This document shows positions 10,009 through 16,175 of a stretch of 20,611 nt of DNA, one piece after another. Both the position numbers and the translations under genes were made by a program. The DNA is from a virus. A model generated the notes under the pieces. It was given only the letters and a program-made list of their open reading frames with translations, had not been told where the DNA came from and did no database searches. The DNA lies in the IMG/VR virus record IMGVR_UViG_3300006917_000196, positions 1 to 20,611 of that record; one strand, given 5' to 3'. Position 1 is the stretch's first letter; each line of letters opens with the position of its first letter.

Positions 10009-10629
10009 TTAGCCAAAAGACCGAATACGCGGTGTTAATTTGCTGCTGCCCACTCTAGCACGTTCGTCAGCAACTTTCATGTCATTAACAAGCGTCTGAT
10101 AAAGGCCAGCCCATACGCCAGTGCGCTCATCTTCCTTCAGATAAGGCGCTGATTGCACCAATGTAGCGTAAAGATATACGTCTGGAGCCTCTGTAAGCAG
10201 CCAATTGGTAGGTGCAGCGTCACTCAGGGCAGGGATTTTGGCGTAATACGTCAATTCGCCCGTGTAAGAGCCATCAGGAGACGGCAAAACCTGAAATTGC
10301 TGCCCAACCATCGTGTAAAACATGGGCTGGCCGGACGTAATGTAGGTCTGGCTGTCTTCGATAAGCTGTTCTGGCGTTACATAGACCAGCGGCGTGATGG
10401 GATTGGTGTTCAACTGGAAGCGAATGTTCTCCAGCCAATCGCTTGGAACAGCAAAATACGGCGTATCCAGAGTTGCATCAGCCCTTGTCACCATCTTGCG
10501 GTGGCGAATTTGGCGGTTCATCTGCGCCTCAGCGAGTGCGATGAAATTAGGGATGGCAGAAGTAAGGTCGGAACGGTTCAACCAGTCCGCTACCGCTGTC
10601 TTCAACTCTGAATAGGTCGTAATAGCCAT
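10009..10629 (-). CDS. Head-tail adaptor protein, SU10-like
   Basis: A 206-residue connector expected to bind beneath the portal and join it to the tail nozzle. The N-terminus YSELKTAVADWLNRSDLTSA, then IPNFIALAEAQMNRQIRHR, is the recognisable adaptor helix pair. FAVPSDWLENIRF, YVTPEQLIEDSQTY and FQVLPSPDGSYTGELTYYAK follow in the order seen in this family. The helical C-terminus contains LVQSAPYLKEDERTGVWAGL. Length is normal. The start overlaps the preceding stop, and the gene lies in the usual place between coat and tail genes. Confidence 0.9.
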   Translation of the reverse strand: MAITTYSELKTAVADWLNRSDLTSAIPNFIALAEAQMNRQIRHRKMVTRADATLDTPYFAVPSDWLENIRFQLNTNPITPLVYVTPEQLIEDSQTYITSGQPMFYTMVGQQFQVLPSPDGSYTGELTYYAKIPALSDAAPTNWLLTEAPDVYLYATLVQSAPYLKEDERTGVWAGLYQTLVNDMKVADERARVGSSKLTPRIRSFG

Positions 10630-10937
10630 TAAATCGTTCCCGGCCTTGTGCGGAATGCTCTGTTGTCAGGGTCATTCAGCCATTTAGCGAGTGCCTTCTG
10701 GTCATGCAGGATGCCTTGGCGCTCAAGCTCGTAATACACTGAAATGGGAATAGAGCCAACCTTCGTCCACTCACCCCAGCGTTCGGGGGCTTCGTTAAAT
10801 TCCGCTTTGTTGGCTTCAATGATAGCCGTTACATCCTGTTCCTTCTGAATGATCGCTTCATCTTTGTCAGCGTCATAGTGGAACGAGGTTACGATGCCTG
10901 TTGTGGCGCTATCATCTTCGATAATTCGTTTGGTCAT
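10629..10937 (-). CDS. Conserved phage protein (102 aa), unknown
   Basis: Begins MTKRIIEDDSATTGIVTSFH, followed by YDADKDEAIIQKEQDV, AIIEANKAEFNE and KVGSIPISVYYELERQGI, and ends WLNDPDNRAFRTRPGTI. The layout (short beta start, D-V-x-x-I-I-E-A-N-K, then a C-terminal helix with LNDPDNRAFRTRPG) recurs in tailed phages between coat and adaptor genes. I recall no assigned function. The start lies inside the HNH gene, with GGAG in TTGGAGCC about nine bases upstream. Its TAA shares a base with the next ATG. A minor head or head-completion role is possible from position only. Confidence 0.85.
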   Translation of the reverse strand: MTKRIIEDDSATTGIVTSFHYDADKDEAIIQKEQDVTAIIEANKAEFNEAPERWGEWTKVGSIPISVYYELERQGILHDQKALAKWLNDPDNRAFRTRPGTI

Positions 10938-11508
10938 TAACGTGGCTCCAAGTCCTGCCAGATAACACGCCGCGAATGCAATTTTCGCTAAGTCCTAACT
11001 CCCTTGCAATACTGGCGGCCTTTTTATCGCTTTGTCTTATATACCTAACAAGGTCATCATTCAACTTAGCCTTTCCATTGCCGGTTCCTTTTGGGGCAAC
11101 GGTGCGCTTTCGGCCTTTTGCAATCATGTCGTGCGTGTTTTGTTTGTAGGTTCCAACTGAGAGATGGTCAGGATTTACGCAAGAAGGATTGTCGCATGAA
11201 TGCATGACAACCATTCCATCAGGTATCTCCCCTTTGTGTATTTCGTATGAAAGGCGATGCGCCGAGAGCGTTCGGCTCCCCCTTCCTCCTTGCTGAATTG
11301 CTCCGTATCCGTTTGAGCGCTTATTACCAGCCCACATCCAGCAATCATCTAACTTAATAACTTTAGAAAAAAAGCGATCCTCTAATGACCCATGAGGTCT
11401 AATTGCAGAGAAGCCTTGATCCGCCCTTCGTGCTTCCATGTAATGTGCGCCGCAAAATCCTCGCGCAACAAATGGTTTATCACAATTCTCAATAGAACAT
11501 TTTCGCAT
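10912..11508 (-). CDS. Free-standing HNH homing endonuclease
   Basis: A 198-residue DNA endonuclease of the kind that spreads between phages. Residues 4-22 form a small zinc-finger-like motif (C4, C9, C19, H22). The HNH core at about 83-118 reads SAHRLSYEIHKGEIPDG, then MHSCDNPSCVNPDHL. H103, N112 and H115 are likely active-site or metal residues, with C105 and C110 as likely zinc ligands. Residues 145-190 (GNGKAKLNDDLVRYIRQS, then SIARELGLSENCIRGVLSG) form a helix-turn-helix-like DNA-binding tail. It sits between coat and the next structural gene. Its ATG directly follows a terminator T-tract, and its 3' end overlaps the next gene by 26 bases. Its A+T-richer codons differ from the coat gene, consistent with recent arrival. 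Confidence 0.93.
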   Translation of the reverse strand: MRKCSIENCDKPFVARGFCGAHYMEARRADQGFSAIRPHGSLEDRFFSKVIKLDDCWMWAGNKRSNGYGAIQQGGRGSRTLSAHRLSYEIHKGEIPDGMVVMHSCDNPSCVNPDHLSVGTYKQNTHDMIAKGRKRTVAPKGTGNGKAKLNDDLVRYIRQSDKKAASIARELGLSENCIRGVLSGRTWSHVNDQTNYRR

Positions 11509-11514
11509 AAAAAA

Positions 11515-11519
11515 CTCCC
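11515..11519 (-). promoter_or_regulatory. Shine-Dalgarno of the HNH gene inside the terminator stem
   Basis: GGGAG lies six bases upstream of the ATG at 11508, an optimal spacing. The same bases form the end of the right arm of the terminator hairpin, so translation should be blocked when the hairpin folds. Confidence 0.6.
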
Positions 11520-11549
11520 GGTGCAGGAGCTTCCTCCATACACCGAGAG
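11515..11549 (-). terminator. Rho-independent terminator after the capsid gene
   Basis: On the minus strand CTCTCGGTG pairs with CACCGGGAG (nine pairs including one U-G). Inside lies a smaller GGAG/CTCC hairpin with a four-base loop. Six Ts follow (11509-11514). The stem begins about 21 bases past the coat stop codon. The 3' arm contains GGGAG, six bases before the ATG of the downstream HNH gene, so the hairpin would also hide that gene's ribosome binding site. Confidence 0.85.
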
Positions 11550-11570
11550 CCTTTTAATGTAAAGTCTAGA

Positions 11571-12533
11571 TTAGGCCGTGGTCAGATCGGCCACAATCCC
11601 ATGAGCAGCCTGGTTCGAAACCTTCAGGCCGTATTCGACGAGCATCAGGCGCTTCTCAGCGTCACCCGTCTTCGCCAGTTCCATCTGCTGGATCGGACGC
11701 AGGATGGCAAGCGAAGCATACTCAGGATCGACCACGAAAGCGTCACGAGCGCGCTGGAAGCGGTTCGGAACGATGTTCACAGTGCCGAAGTCCGACACAT
11801 AAACGTCAGCCGCGCCGATGATCTGAGCCTGCTGGCCTGCCGGAACGTCACGGAACTTCGTGGCGATGCCAGAGAATGCCGAAGCAGCCTGCTTGTTGAA
11901 CGCGCCAACCATGAGCATCTTCGGAGTGCCGCCTGAGGTCCAGACTTCAGCGATGACGTTCTTCAGCAACGTTTCGGTGAAGGCACGCTGAGTGCCGTCC
12001 GTGCGGGCAGCAGTCGGGGTCGAGCCAACAGTCGGGTCAGCACCACCCGTGCCGAAGTCGGTGTTCGAGGTCAACCAAGCGGGCAGACCAGCCGTGCGAC
12101 GAGCAGTCGTGGTGTTACCAGCAACAGCAGCCTGGTTAGCAAGCAGCGAGCTTTCCATGTCACGCTTCAGAGCAGCGCCCATCTTGGCAAGCTGATAGGT
12201 CAGTTCCGAACGACGACCAGCCTTGTCAACGCTTTCGAGCGTGCCGGAGATGATGACATCCTTGCGGCTGATCTGCGTGTAGTTACCAACACGAGCGGTC
12301 GGCGTAACAGCGGAGAACGACGAGATGTCGTCACCTTCCAGAGCGGCGTTCGAAGAAGAAGCAGCGTCCAGAGCGTCCGTCTGCCATTCGAAGTAGGTGT
12401 TCTTCACGTTCTCACGGGAAACGTTCGAGATGAACGGAGTTTCTTCCGGCGAGATGTTGTAAATGACGTTCGACAGGTCTTCACGGATACCGATAGCCGA
12501 GTAACGGGTGAAGGTATTAGTAACAATAGCCAT
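11571..12533 (-). CDS. Major capsid protein, SU10-like
   Basis: A 320-residue coat protein expected to form the icosahedral shell. The N-terminus (FTRYSAIGIREDLSNVIYNI, then SPEETPFISNV) and the segments FEWQTDALDAAS, GNYTQISRKDVIISGT and LAKMGAALKRDMESSLL match the SU10/DUF5309 coat family with the HK97 fold. The C-terminal FVVDPEYASLAILRPIQ and LVEYGLKVSNQAAHG are also typical. Codons are dominated by C- and G-ending choices, consistent with a highly expressed gene. AAGGA lies about nine bases upstream of the ATG. A strong terminator follows the stop by about 21 bases, which probably isolates coat expression from the genes beyond it. Confidence 0.95.
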   Translation of the reverse strand: MAIVTNTFTRYSAIGIREDLSNVIYNISPEETPFISNVSRENVKNTYFEWQTDALDAASSSNAALEGDDISSFSAVTPTARVGNYTQISRKDVIISGTLESVDKAGRRSELTYQLAKMGAALKRDMESSLLANQAAVAGNTTTARRTAGLPAWLTSNTDFGTGGADPTVGSTPTAARTDGTQRAFTETLLKNVIAEVWTSGGTPKMLMVGAFNKQAASAFSGIATKFRDVPAGQQAQIIGAADVYVSDFGTVNIVPNRFQRARDAFVVDPEYASLAILRPIQQMELAKTGDAEKRLMLVEYGLKVSNQAAHGIVADLTTA

Positions 12534-13596: not shown

Positions 13597-13833
13597 TTAA
13601 TTCCTTGAGGCAAGCACTCCTGCATCAAGGGTTGCCTGTAGGCGTGCTTTCAAACGCTCAAGTCCTTTAAGCGTGTGAAACAGGTCCGAGCGGTGCTGGT
13701 CGTCACCAATAGCGGTGGTGCGCCACTCGTTGTAAATGTCAGCCTCTACTTGTGCAAAAGCCTCCAGAAGAATGTGGTCTTCTAAGAGGCGCTTTGCGTG
13801 AGCCGCATCATCAATGATTTTTTGAGTGTCCAT
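13597..13833 (-). CDS. Small helical phage protein (78 aa), unknown
   Basis: A compact charged protein, predicted almost wholly helical: MDTQKIIDDAAHAKRLLEDH, then LLEAFAQVEADIYNEWRTT, then HTLKGLERLKARLQATLD. The pattern of a helix ending NEWRTT followed by HxLKxxERLKxxL resembles small conserved phage proteins encoded near portals and scaffolds, for which I know no function. Its ATG overlaps the stop of the preceding gene, and the scaffold gene follows after 22 bases. It could be a small head or packaging cofactor, but nothing in the sequence decides this. Confidence 0.8.
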   Translation of the reverse strand: MDTQKIIDDAAHAKRLLEDHILLEAFAQVEADIYNEWRTTAIGDDQHRSDLFHTLKGLERLKARLQATLDAGVLASRN

Positions 13834-16175
13834 TAGATGAGAGGCCGATATTGCTGAATTGCAGTGTTGTAAATGTTCTGCATTTGCTGAATGTCAGGCG
13901 TTTGCGACAAAAGGCTTTGACGAAGCTGGCTTTGGATGTTGCGTGCTTGGTCAACATTTAAAAGCCCCTGAGAGACTTGAGCGCCCAACTGCTTGTATAA
14001 ATCATTAACGAAGGCGCTTGGATTTGTAATCGGCTGTGCAGGAGGCGTGTATGTTATTGGCTGCATAGGCGCAGGCGCTGGGGCCACAGGGCGCTGCGTG
14101 CCAGTTGGCTTCAAGAAGTCAGAGATTTGCGGCATTGGAACCGCTGCCTGAAGTGATGCCAGTGTCGCGCCAGGTGCAGATGCAGCAGCCTCTAATCGCC
14201 CTTGAATTTCCTTACCCTGCTCAGGTGTAATGTATCCCTTTGCAGCGTAGTTACCAAGAACGTCATTGACGGACTTGAAGTAATTGAAAAACTCGCCTGA
14301 ACGCATATTCTCAAAGCGGTCCTGAAGCTGGTCAAGGCGCTCCTGCGTCATTCCTGTGTTTTCAGGCGTTGAGAGAACGCCGCCACCTACTTGCGATGTT
14401 GGGAATGGACCAACACCCATTGCGGGCTGCGTTGTTGTCGGAGTTGCGCTAATTGGCTGCAAAGCTCCAGATGTTGCTGGAGTGGCCCCAGCGCCTGCCG
14501 CTGCATTCAATACACCCTGTGCAGATGTGGGTGCAGGAGTTGTAGCTGCTGGCGGAGTGTAAGTGTTAATCGCCTGCCCACCAGAAAAGAACAAAGCTTC
14601 TGGGCCAAAGCCATAACGCTCATAATCCGTGATATTAGGATTAACCAACGTGCGTGGTGCAAAGTTAGGCATAGCGCCTAGAGCGGAAACATATGGAGTT
14701 CCCGCACCAGCACCACCACCAGAACCTCCTCCGAATAGACTTCCAAGAGCAGATGCACCAAGTCCACCGAGCGCTGCAAGCTGGCTTAAGCTAAGACCTG
14801 TTCCCAAAACGCCACCCGTAACGGCAGCCCCAGCGCCTGGTGCAACAAACGCACCAGCACCCATACCGTTATATCCTGCAGCCGCCAAATCATTTGCAGC
14901 GCCAGTTTGGGCATTCGTAGTTGCAGTATCTAATGCGTTTTGCACATTCTCGCTAATTGTAGCGTCAGTCGCACCGCCACCTGTCGCCAGTGCAGCGCCA
15001 CCGCCAAGTGCGGCAGTCCCCCCAAGGATACCAGTAGTGCCTCCCGCTCCACCGCCACCAGTTGCAATAATAGTTCCCGTTTCGTCTACTACGTTACCGA
15101 ATTGGTCTGTAGATAAGTTTTCACCAGTCTGACTAGTTGCCTGATTTGCGGTTGAGGCAGATGAAGCGCCACCACCGCCAGTTAGCGCCGCGGCGCCACC
15201 AAGCGCAGTTGCACCAGCAGCAGCCGGAAGCAGAGACGTTCCAGCCCCACCTCCTGCAGAGGCTACAATAGCACCAGTCTCGTCAATAACGTTACCAAAT
15301 GCATCTGTAACTAATCCTCCAGTAACTCCACCGCCAAGGCCAGCACTAGATAATGCAGATTGCGCAGCAGCGTCAATTGCGGCCAAATTGCTTGGCAATG
15401 ATGAAAGAGCGCTACCAGCAAGAGAGCCAGCACCTCCAGCTAAACCGCCAGCAGCAGAGCCGTAAATTCCACCAAGTGCAGATGCTGCACCAGATTGGGC
15501 GGCTTGATATGCAGCGTTAATAGCGTTGTTTACGTTTGCAGAGATGGCTGCATCCGTTGCACCAGCAGGAGCGCCCTGAAATAGCTGCCCACCAAGATAT
15601 GAGCCAACACCAGAGATCAATGCACCCTTTGCAATATCGCCGATACTACGCCCCTGTGCGGCTCCAGACGCGGCGGAGCCTGCGGCAGCACCAAGCGGAC
15701 CAGCCAAAACAGAGCCGAGGATGGGAAGGCCAATATCAGCTACAATACCAAGGCCGCTTACGTCAGGACGATCTGTAGAAACGCTCTGGAAGCCCTGCAT
15801 AGTTGGGCCTGCAACCTGAATGTCCCAGTTGGCCTTTTTGCCAGCAGACGATGACAGCGCGTTTGCTGCGTCAATCGCCCCTTGAGCGCCTTCGTAGCCA
15901 ATACCAGAGTAAACTACTTCGCCAGTTGCATTGTTGACAAGGCGGACGGGCGTATCAGGAGCAACAACAAGATTGTTTCCTGTGCCATAGGATGCAGTTG
16001 TGCGACCTTGGTTAGACAGTGGAGCCGTGAAATACTGATAATCAGGCGCGTTCTGGACGATGTCTCCATACACGCTCTGGATATTAGGGATGTAGTCCTC
16101 ACGCGGCGTCAGTAGACCGCCAATGTTGCCTAACTGCTCAAGGTCTTGTAAATTGCGGCGGATAGGTGAGGCCAT
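13833..16175 (-). CDS. Large Gly/Ala-rich putative internal virion/ejection protein
   Basis: A 780-residue protein placed between portal and scaffold. It has a globular N-terminus (1-140), then a long Gly/Ala-rich middle (about 145-490) with glycine-zipper-like stretches such as GLPILGSVLAGPLGAAAGSA, able to insert into or line membranes. It contains an internal duplication: ATDAAISANVNNAINAAYQ (from 206) resembles ATDATISENVQNALDTATT (from 402), and FGNVIDETGAIVAS (from 293) resembles FGNVVDETGTIIAT (from 359). The C-terminal 180 residues are Pro-rich with two helical repeats (about 638-664 and 725-752). I do not recognise a named family. Position and composition suggest a minor head or DNA-ejection protein, which is inferred. 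The ATG shares a base with the portal stop. Confidence 0.75.
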   Translation of the reverse strand: MASPIRRNLQDLEQLGNIGGLLTPREDYIPNIQSVYGDIVQNAPDYQYFTAPLSNQGRTTASYGTGNNLVVAPDTPVRLVNNATGEVVYSGIGYEGAQGAIDAANALSSSAGKKANWDIQVAGPTMQGFQSVSTDRPDVSGLGIVADIGLPILGSVLAGPLGAAAGSAASGAAQGRSIGDIAKGALISGVGSYLGGQLFQGAPAGATDAAISANVNNAINAAYQAAQSGAASALGGIYGSAAGGLAGGAGSLAGSALSSLPSNLAAIDAAAQSALSSAGLGGGVTGGLVTDAFGNVIDETGAIVASAGGGAGTSLLPAAAGATALGGAAALTGGGGASSASTANQATSQTGENLSTDQFGNVVDETGTIIATGGGGAGGTTGILGGTAALGGGAALATGGGATDATISENVQNALDTATTNAQTGAANDLAAAGYNGMGAGAFVAPGAGAAVTGGVLGTGLSLSQLAALGGLGASALGSLFGGGSGGGAGAGTPYVSALGAMPNFAPRTLVNPNITDYERYGFGPEALFFSGGQAINTYTPPAATTPAPTSAQGVLNAAAGAGATPATSGALQPISATPTTTQPAMGVGPFPTSQVGGGVLSTPENTGMTQERLDQLQDRFENMRSGEFFNYFKSVNDVLGNYAAKGYITPEQGKEIQGRLEAAASAPGATLASLQAAVPMPQISDFLKPTGTQRPVAPAPAPMQPITYTPPAQPITNPSAFVNDLYKQLGAQVSQGLLNVDQARNIQSQLRQSLLSQTPDIQQMQNIYNTAIQQYRPLI

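Follow-up and report, generated by a model that had tools for sequence, protein, structure and literature searches.

A predicted terminator and start-hiding hairpin carried with an HNH endonuclease gene behind a phage major capsid gene

The homing endonuclease genes I-TevI, I-TevII, I-TevIII and segB of phage T4 and mobE of phage Aeh1 are transcribed from upstream into RNAs that fold and hide the ribosome site, and transcripts from a nearby promoter escape this hiding (PMC2988022). Seven free-standing endonucleases of T4 are promoter-less, and mobE and segF have their terminators within their own coding regions, not at the start hairpin (PMC2988022). In Bacillus subtilis, a conserved hairpin in the 5' leader of sigG is reported to occlude the ribosome site and lower expression (PMC5942855). 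The sigG gene resembles the present locus in the occlusion of a ribosome site by a conserved 5' leader hairpin, and differs in being a chromosomal sigma-factor gene whose hairpin lies in its own leader and is not a terminator. Phage T7 has a (partial) terminator directly downstream of its major capsid gene 10, a position like that of the hairpin described here, but it is not joined to an endonuclease start.

Here we report the analysis of a stretch of viral DNA of 20,611 nucleotides (IMG/VR record IMGVR_UViG_3300006917_000196, positions 1 to 20,611), referred to as the window. An original prediction made from its sequence had placed one hairpin with two tasks between the coat gene and an HNH gene, namely ending the coat-gene transcript and hiding the HNH start. 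Like I-TevI, segB and mobE, this is a (putative) homing endonuclease gene whose ribosome site would be hidden in transcripts from upstream, with a candidate promoter placed so that its transcripts would miss the closing arm. Unlike the T4-like systems, which use T4 late or middle promoters, the loci considered here are podovirus-type coat loci with sigma70-like promoters; the endonucleases are of the zinc-finger HNH_3 family and lie behind major capsid genes, and in the clade of the window the hairpin is fused to a run of six Ts. By analogy, the element would work like the I-TevI, segB and mobE switch. It is not classed as a member of that group, because the T4 late promoter (TATAAATA) is absent between the capsid stop and the HNH ATG and the window's own candidate promoter is weak. 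No paper on such a lock outside T4-like phages, or on one fused with a terminator, was found among open-licence publications.

The intergenic region and its predicted fold

The genes at the hairpin locus are all on the minus strand. Between the stop codon of the major capsid protein (MCP) gene (11573-11571) and the ATG of the HNH gene (11508-11506) there are 62 nt, and on the minus strand the gap and start codon read TCTAGAC TTTACA TTAAAAGG CTCTCGGTG TATGGAGGAAGCTCCTG CACCGGGAG TTTTTT ATG (Table 1). The HNH reading frame scores 48.2 bits against HNH_3 (PF13392) over residues 83-125, above the curated cut-off of 24.8, and is thus a member of that family.

Table 1. Positions of the features at the coat-HNH locus of the window
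Feature	Position	Strand	Basis
Major capsid protein gene (SU10_MCP), source of upstream transcripts	11571..12533	-	Pfam PF17236, E=1e-100; phrog_1328
Candidate -35 element TTTACA	11558..11563	-	GACTT[GT]AC invariant in the 9 closest aligned HNH alleles
Hairpin left arm CTCTCGGTG, complementary to the HNH Shine-Dalgarno	11541..11549	-	Folds and covariation
Candidate -10 element TATGGA, weak, in the loop, 17 nt from the -35	11535..11540	-	Inferred for the window itself
Hairpin right arm CACCGGGAG, containing the Shine-Dalgarno GGGAG (11519-11515)	11515..11523	-	Sequence
T6 tract, putative terminator U-tract and Shine-Dalgarno/ATG spacer	11509..11514	-	Sequence; ranks first in the scan for terminator-like sites
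HNH endonuclease gene with N-terminal zinc finger, 198 aa	10912..11508	-	Pfam PF13392, E=8e-13; phrog_3593, E=1.5e-35
Stretch unlike the HNH-less allele (intergenic hairpin and HNH), replacing a spacer of ~50 nt	10939..11577	-	blastn against L001, L002, L004 and L007
Next gene (phrog_3982)	10629..10937	-	Adjoins the coat gene in HNH-less relatives

Close relatives of the HNH gene begin at the same place, just 5' of the invariant zinc-finger cysteines. A start further downstream was considered and rejected, since the relatives share the ATG and the zinc finger begins at residue 4; nor was a promoter or start site found inside the HNH gene. At its other end the HNH frame overruns the start of the next gene by 26 nt (10912-10937), and the protein carries an extra C-terminal tail from this overrun that its relatives are without. 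Elsewhere in the window, a protein of 780 aa encoded beside the portal gene (13833-16175) had no Pfam or PHROG match at E 0.001.

As the original prediction had described, a stem runs into six Ts that are directly followed by the HNH ATG, and the GGGAG ribosome site is part of the right arm. The stem has 9 bp, and GGGAG, at the end of the right arm and 6 nt from the ATG, is the only good Shine-Dalgarno of the gene. In the full transcript its predicted pairing probability is 1.0, so that the endonuclease ribosome site would be buried in upstream transcripts in the manner of the T4-type genes, as judged from fold prediction and covariation. For the whole region the predicted fold has -32.8 kcal/mol, where shuffles average -15.5 (z = -6.4), a stability equalled by none of 200 shuffles, and another shuffle comparison of the hairpin fold gave z = -4.8. 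When both strands of the whole window were scanned for hairpins followed by a T-tract, this one was the strongest at -24.3 kcal/mol, the runner-up reaching -14.7. A standard terminator scan omitted it because only loops of 3-8 nt were allowed, and the loop here is 17 nt long and branched. Searching the window against Rfam matched no known element. With a G+C-rich stem of 9 bp directly 5' of a U-tract of six, the hairpin has the form of an intrinsic (Rho-independent) terminator, and we infer that it would terminate coat-gene transcripts. It would also be expected, from the modelled fold, to block HNH translation in upstream transcripts. Together with its terminator-like T run it probably keeps the strong coat-gene transcripts from yielding a DNA-cutting enzyme; all functional statements on the hairpin are predictions from sequence.

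What the original prediction overlooked is a likely promoter within the hairpin, whose local transcripts would evade both blocks. In the window this candidate, TTTACA-17-TATGGA, scores 6.2, between the 75th (5.9) and 90th (7.3) percentiles of the best hits in shuffled sequence; the score is low because the -10 element is poor, and a stricter promoter scan returned no promoter. Most relatives have TTGACA or TTGACT as their -35 where the window has TTTACA, and the -10 of the window occupies the position of TAGAAC or TAGAAT in three alleles (L084, L086, L087). These sister alleles score higher, with TTGACT-17-TAGAAC at 9.4 in L084 and TTGACT-17-TAGAAT at 12.9 in L086. An RNA of the window starting near 11531 is predicted to keep a residual fold (GCUCCUG/CGGGAGU, -8.6 kcal/mol), and the equivalent RNA of L086 without the left arm is predicted to be open (-1.0 kcal/mol). 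The case for an own promoter is therefore clear in L084 and L086, and in the window it consists of a weak site with a remaining fold. From this weak -10 and residual fold it follows that, in the clade of the window, either a weak promoter would give partial release or HNH would be made at a very low level by another route; the choice between these two is our main doubt.

Arrival with the HNH gene and maintenance of the stem

A scan of viral contigs with the window MCP gave 80 relatives, five of which carry an HNH gene behind the MCP gene (L017, L039, L048, L061, L073), each time preceded by a stem of this kind, then a T-tract and the ATG. The other relatives lack an HNH gene there and have another hairpin (GGGGAGGGG-TTTCGG-CCTCTCCCC is one example) that is not followed by a T-tract; 3' of it the next gene has a GGAGGG ribosome site of its own. 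Alignment by blastn to four of these HNH-less phages (L001, L002, L004, L007) ends at 11578 and restarts at 10938, with flanks 84-98% identical, so that the site is occupied in the window and empty in near-identical phages, as is typical of a free-standing homing endonuclease. The position of this break and the different, T-less hairpin in the HNH-less phages indicate that the hairpin came with the HNH gene, and that the two replaced the original spacer as one cassette. The idea that the hairpin is older than the HNH insertion, a point that the original prediction had left to comparison with HNH-less relatives, is rejected on the same grounds. When 2.9 million viral contigs were scanned by pattern, hairpins of the window type turned up at HNH loci only, apart from two unrelated chance matches with a single sequence between them.

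The hairpin of the HNH-less phages is a feature in itself. It lies directly 3' of the MCP stop in L001-L016 and others (L002, 4962-5010, for example) as a perfect G+C-rich hairpin with no T-tract; stem and position are kept and the sequence is clade-specific (GGGGAGGGG..CCTCTCCCC, GGGTGAGGGGGC..GCCCCCTCAT).

Among nine related HNH alleles the 9-bp stem is paired in 81 of 81 cells (100%), and compensatory changes on both sides occur in five of the nine stem pairs (U-A to C-G, C-G to U-A, G-C to A-U and others); the nine sequences are related, and these counts are not of independent events. The observed score was not matched in any of 500 shuffles, and pairing fell to 35-57% when the partners were shifted by 1-3 columns. 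The arms vary widely in sequence between HNH alleles with their pairing kept, and the stem is clearly maintained as a stem.

Predicted start hiding and candidate promoters among zinc-finger HNH genes

The survey comprised 73 non-redundant HNH genes with an N-terminal zinc finger, pooled from several HNH-based scans. A predicted Shine-Dalgarno pairing above 0.8 was obtained for 66% of them, against 13% of 162 neighbouring genes on the same contigs and 21% of shuffles that preserved the Shine-Dalgarno region. The mean promoter score was 7.3, compared with 3.3 for the neighbour genes and 4.3 for shuffles, and the best -10 hits concentrate at about -42 to -27, where the neighbour genes have almost none. 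For the 39 genes with both a paired Shine-Dalgarno and a promoter, the predicted +1 falls 3' of the left arm and ahead of the Shine-Dalgarno in 79%, as against 43% (maximum 69%, 1000 draws) when promoter positions were drawn from shuffles. RNAs begun at such promoters would as a rule be missing the left arm or most of it.

An upstream reading frame could be called for 70 of the HNH genes, and in 45 cases it is a major coat gene immediately before the HNH gene (SU10 type in 29, P22 type in 16), separated from it by 44 to 101 nt; coat genes were called by local homology searches, with four examples checked against Pfam. Of the 46 coat-adjacent genes, 39 have a ribosome site predicted to be hidden, 33 have a sigma70-like promoter (score at least 6, -10 at -46 to -24 from the ATG), and 28 have both lock and promoter. 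Grouped into 23 clusters at 60% identity, the coat-adjacent genes differ from neighbour genes in both signals at p about 1e-9. With 24 clusters at 50% identity, weighted equally and including HNH genes that are not coat-adjacent, the signal is weak (p = 0.07 and 0.18), and the claim is therefore restricted to coat-adjacent HNH genes. Within these, the pairing of a predicted lock with a sigma70-like promoter is family-wide. In four alleles (L190, L195, L196, L200) TATAAT stands immediately 5' of the anti-Shine-Dalgarno arm, and in L318 (record MW202691, P22-type coat) it lies within a nearly perfect long stem that buries GGAG.

At least five Ts in the six bases before the ATG were found in only 12 of the 73 HNH genes, most of them of the window's clade, and hiding the start is therefore the general function and termination an optional addition. 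The proposal that one hairpin does both jobs fits the sequence of the window on both counts, start hiding being the part that carries over to the wider set. That read-through transcripts would carry a sequestered start gains support from the covariation and from this family comparison.

Cultured T7-like phages have HNH genes that are packed differently, with no such Shine-Dalgarno-hiding hairpin (L321, L323, L325, L327, L329), so the lock is not universal for HNH genes. Good promoters without a hairpin were also seen in L132, L147 and L161. These three belong with L167 and L227 to a separate group that has TATAAT or TATACT ~27 nt before the ATG, an AGGAGG-like site and no start-hiding hairpin of the coat-adjacent type, and that may serve as a natural contrast group. 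One phage contig (L207) carries two different zinc-finger HNH genes ~1 kb apart (1492 and 2503), the first directly behind the MCP gene, with the ribosome site predicted to be paired in both. In the cultured Vibrio phage 1.232.O (MG592596.1, L330), TATTAT and then a GCCTC..GAGGGGC hairpin directly precede the ATG of an HNH gene downstream of the major capsid gene, which makes it a candidate for RNA mapping.

Proposed mechanism, rival explanations and meaning

We give a probability of roughly 0.6 to the reading that the hairpin is an expression lock of a free-standing HNH cassette inserted behind the major capsid gene, with the HNH protein expressed from short internal transcripts. In transcripts arriving through the capsid gene the complete hairpin would form, and the stem and its U6 would be expected to halt the majority; any read-through RNA would have its Shine-Dalgarno buried in the stem and its HNH gene left untranslated. 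Expression would come from short transcripts begun inside the hairpin at a sigma70-like promoter with its -10 at the loop, which, being without the left arm, would neither terminate nor hide the start. In this putative transcript-origin switch the own promoter is the weakest step for the window itself. A bolder version, to which we would give somewhat less than even odds, is a three-in-one mobile element of ~55 bp that travels with the HNH gene and combines a terminator of coat transcripts, a lock on the endonuclease start and an escaping promoter, with T-less versions serving coat-gene HNH endonucleases in SU10-type and P22-type phages alike.

The clade of the window may instead have lock and terminator with no promoter of its own, the HNH protein arising at low level from leaky read-through or after an RNase has cut within the hairpin and so freed the start. 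The poor -10 of the window and the mini-hairpin that persists after truncation would fit this, and transcripts of T4 segB and segG and of Aeh1 mobE undergo processing by RNase E or at sites like those of RNase E (PMC2988022). We nevertheless consider it unlikely, as GACTT[GT]AC is invariant at the -35 distance in nine alleles and clear promoters occupy the same place in the sisters L084 and L086 and in most coat-adjacent relatives. It is also improbable that the hairpin is an ordinary coat-gene terminator that overlaps the HNH ribosome site simply through compact packing, with no regulatory role. Six Ts behind a stem of -24.3 kcal/mol are typical of a terminator and the T7 capsid gene offers a parallel, but HNH-less relatives have no T-tract after the stem at this site, and most HNH relatives keep the Shine-Dalgarno-hiding stem without one, from which start hiding emerges as the conserved part.

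A role of the hairpin as a DNA or RNA site for the HNH protein, either operator or homing target, in place of an expression lock has a precedent in I-TevI, which represses itself at an operator resembling its homing site (PMC2988022). Such a role seems very improbable here, given that the arms diverge widely between alleles with pairing preserved and that the coat-gene 3' end and the HNH promoter region have a mean best 10-mer match of 7.04, against 6.84 in shuffles. The promoter region as an operator copied from the homing site was accordingly rejected, no shared motif being found above shuffles.

On the preferred reading of an expression lock, what is new here would be a mobile HNH cassette in which one hairpin is both terminator and start lock, set within a wider group of coat-adjacent HNH genes with a candidate promoter in the hairpin. 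If the hairpin terminates, the genes downstream of HNH (phrog_3982, the adaptor and others) would depend on read-through or on the HNH promoter, and their dose would fall relative to the coat protein, which may be tolerable for low-copy virion proteins. The element is under 70 bp and is a practical aid for annotating true HNH starts. Within the open literature searched, descriptions of transcript-origin control of homing endonucleases cover a handful of genes in T4-like phages. The same logic appears here in two further capsid lineages, as a widespread, covarying sequence feature of the HNH endonucleases behind coat genes that goes with sigma70-like promoters. This suggests a general solution to a general problem, in which a selfish DNA-cutting gene that sits behind the most strongly expressed gene of a phage would need shielding from the transcription of that gene.
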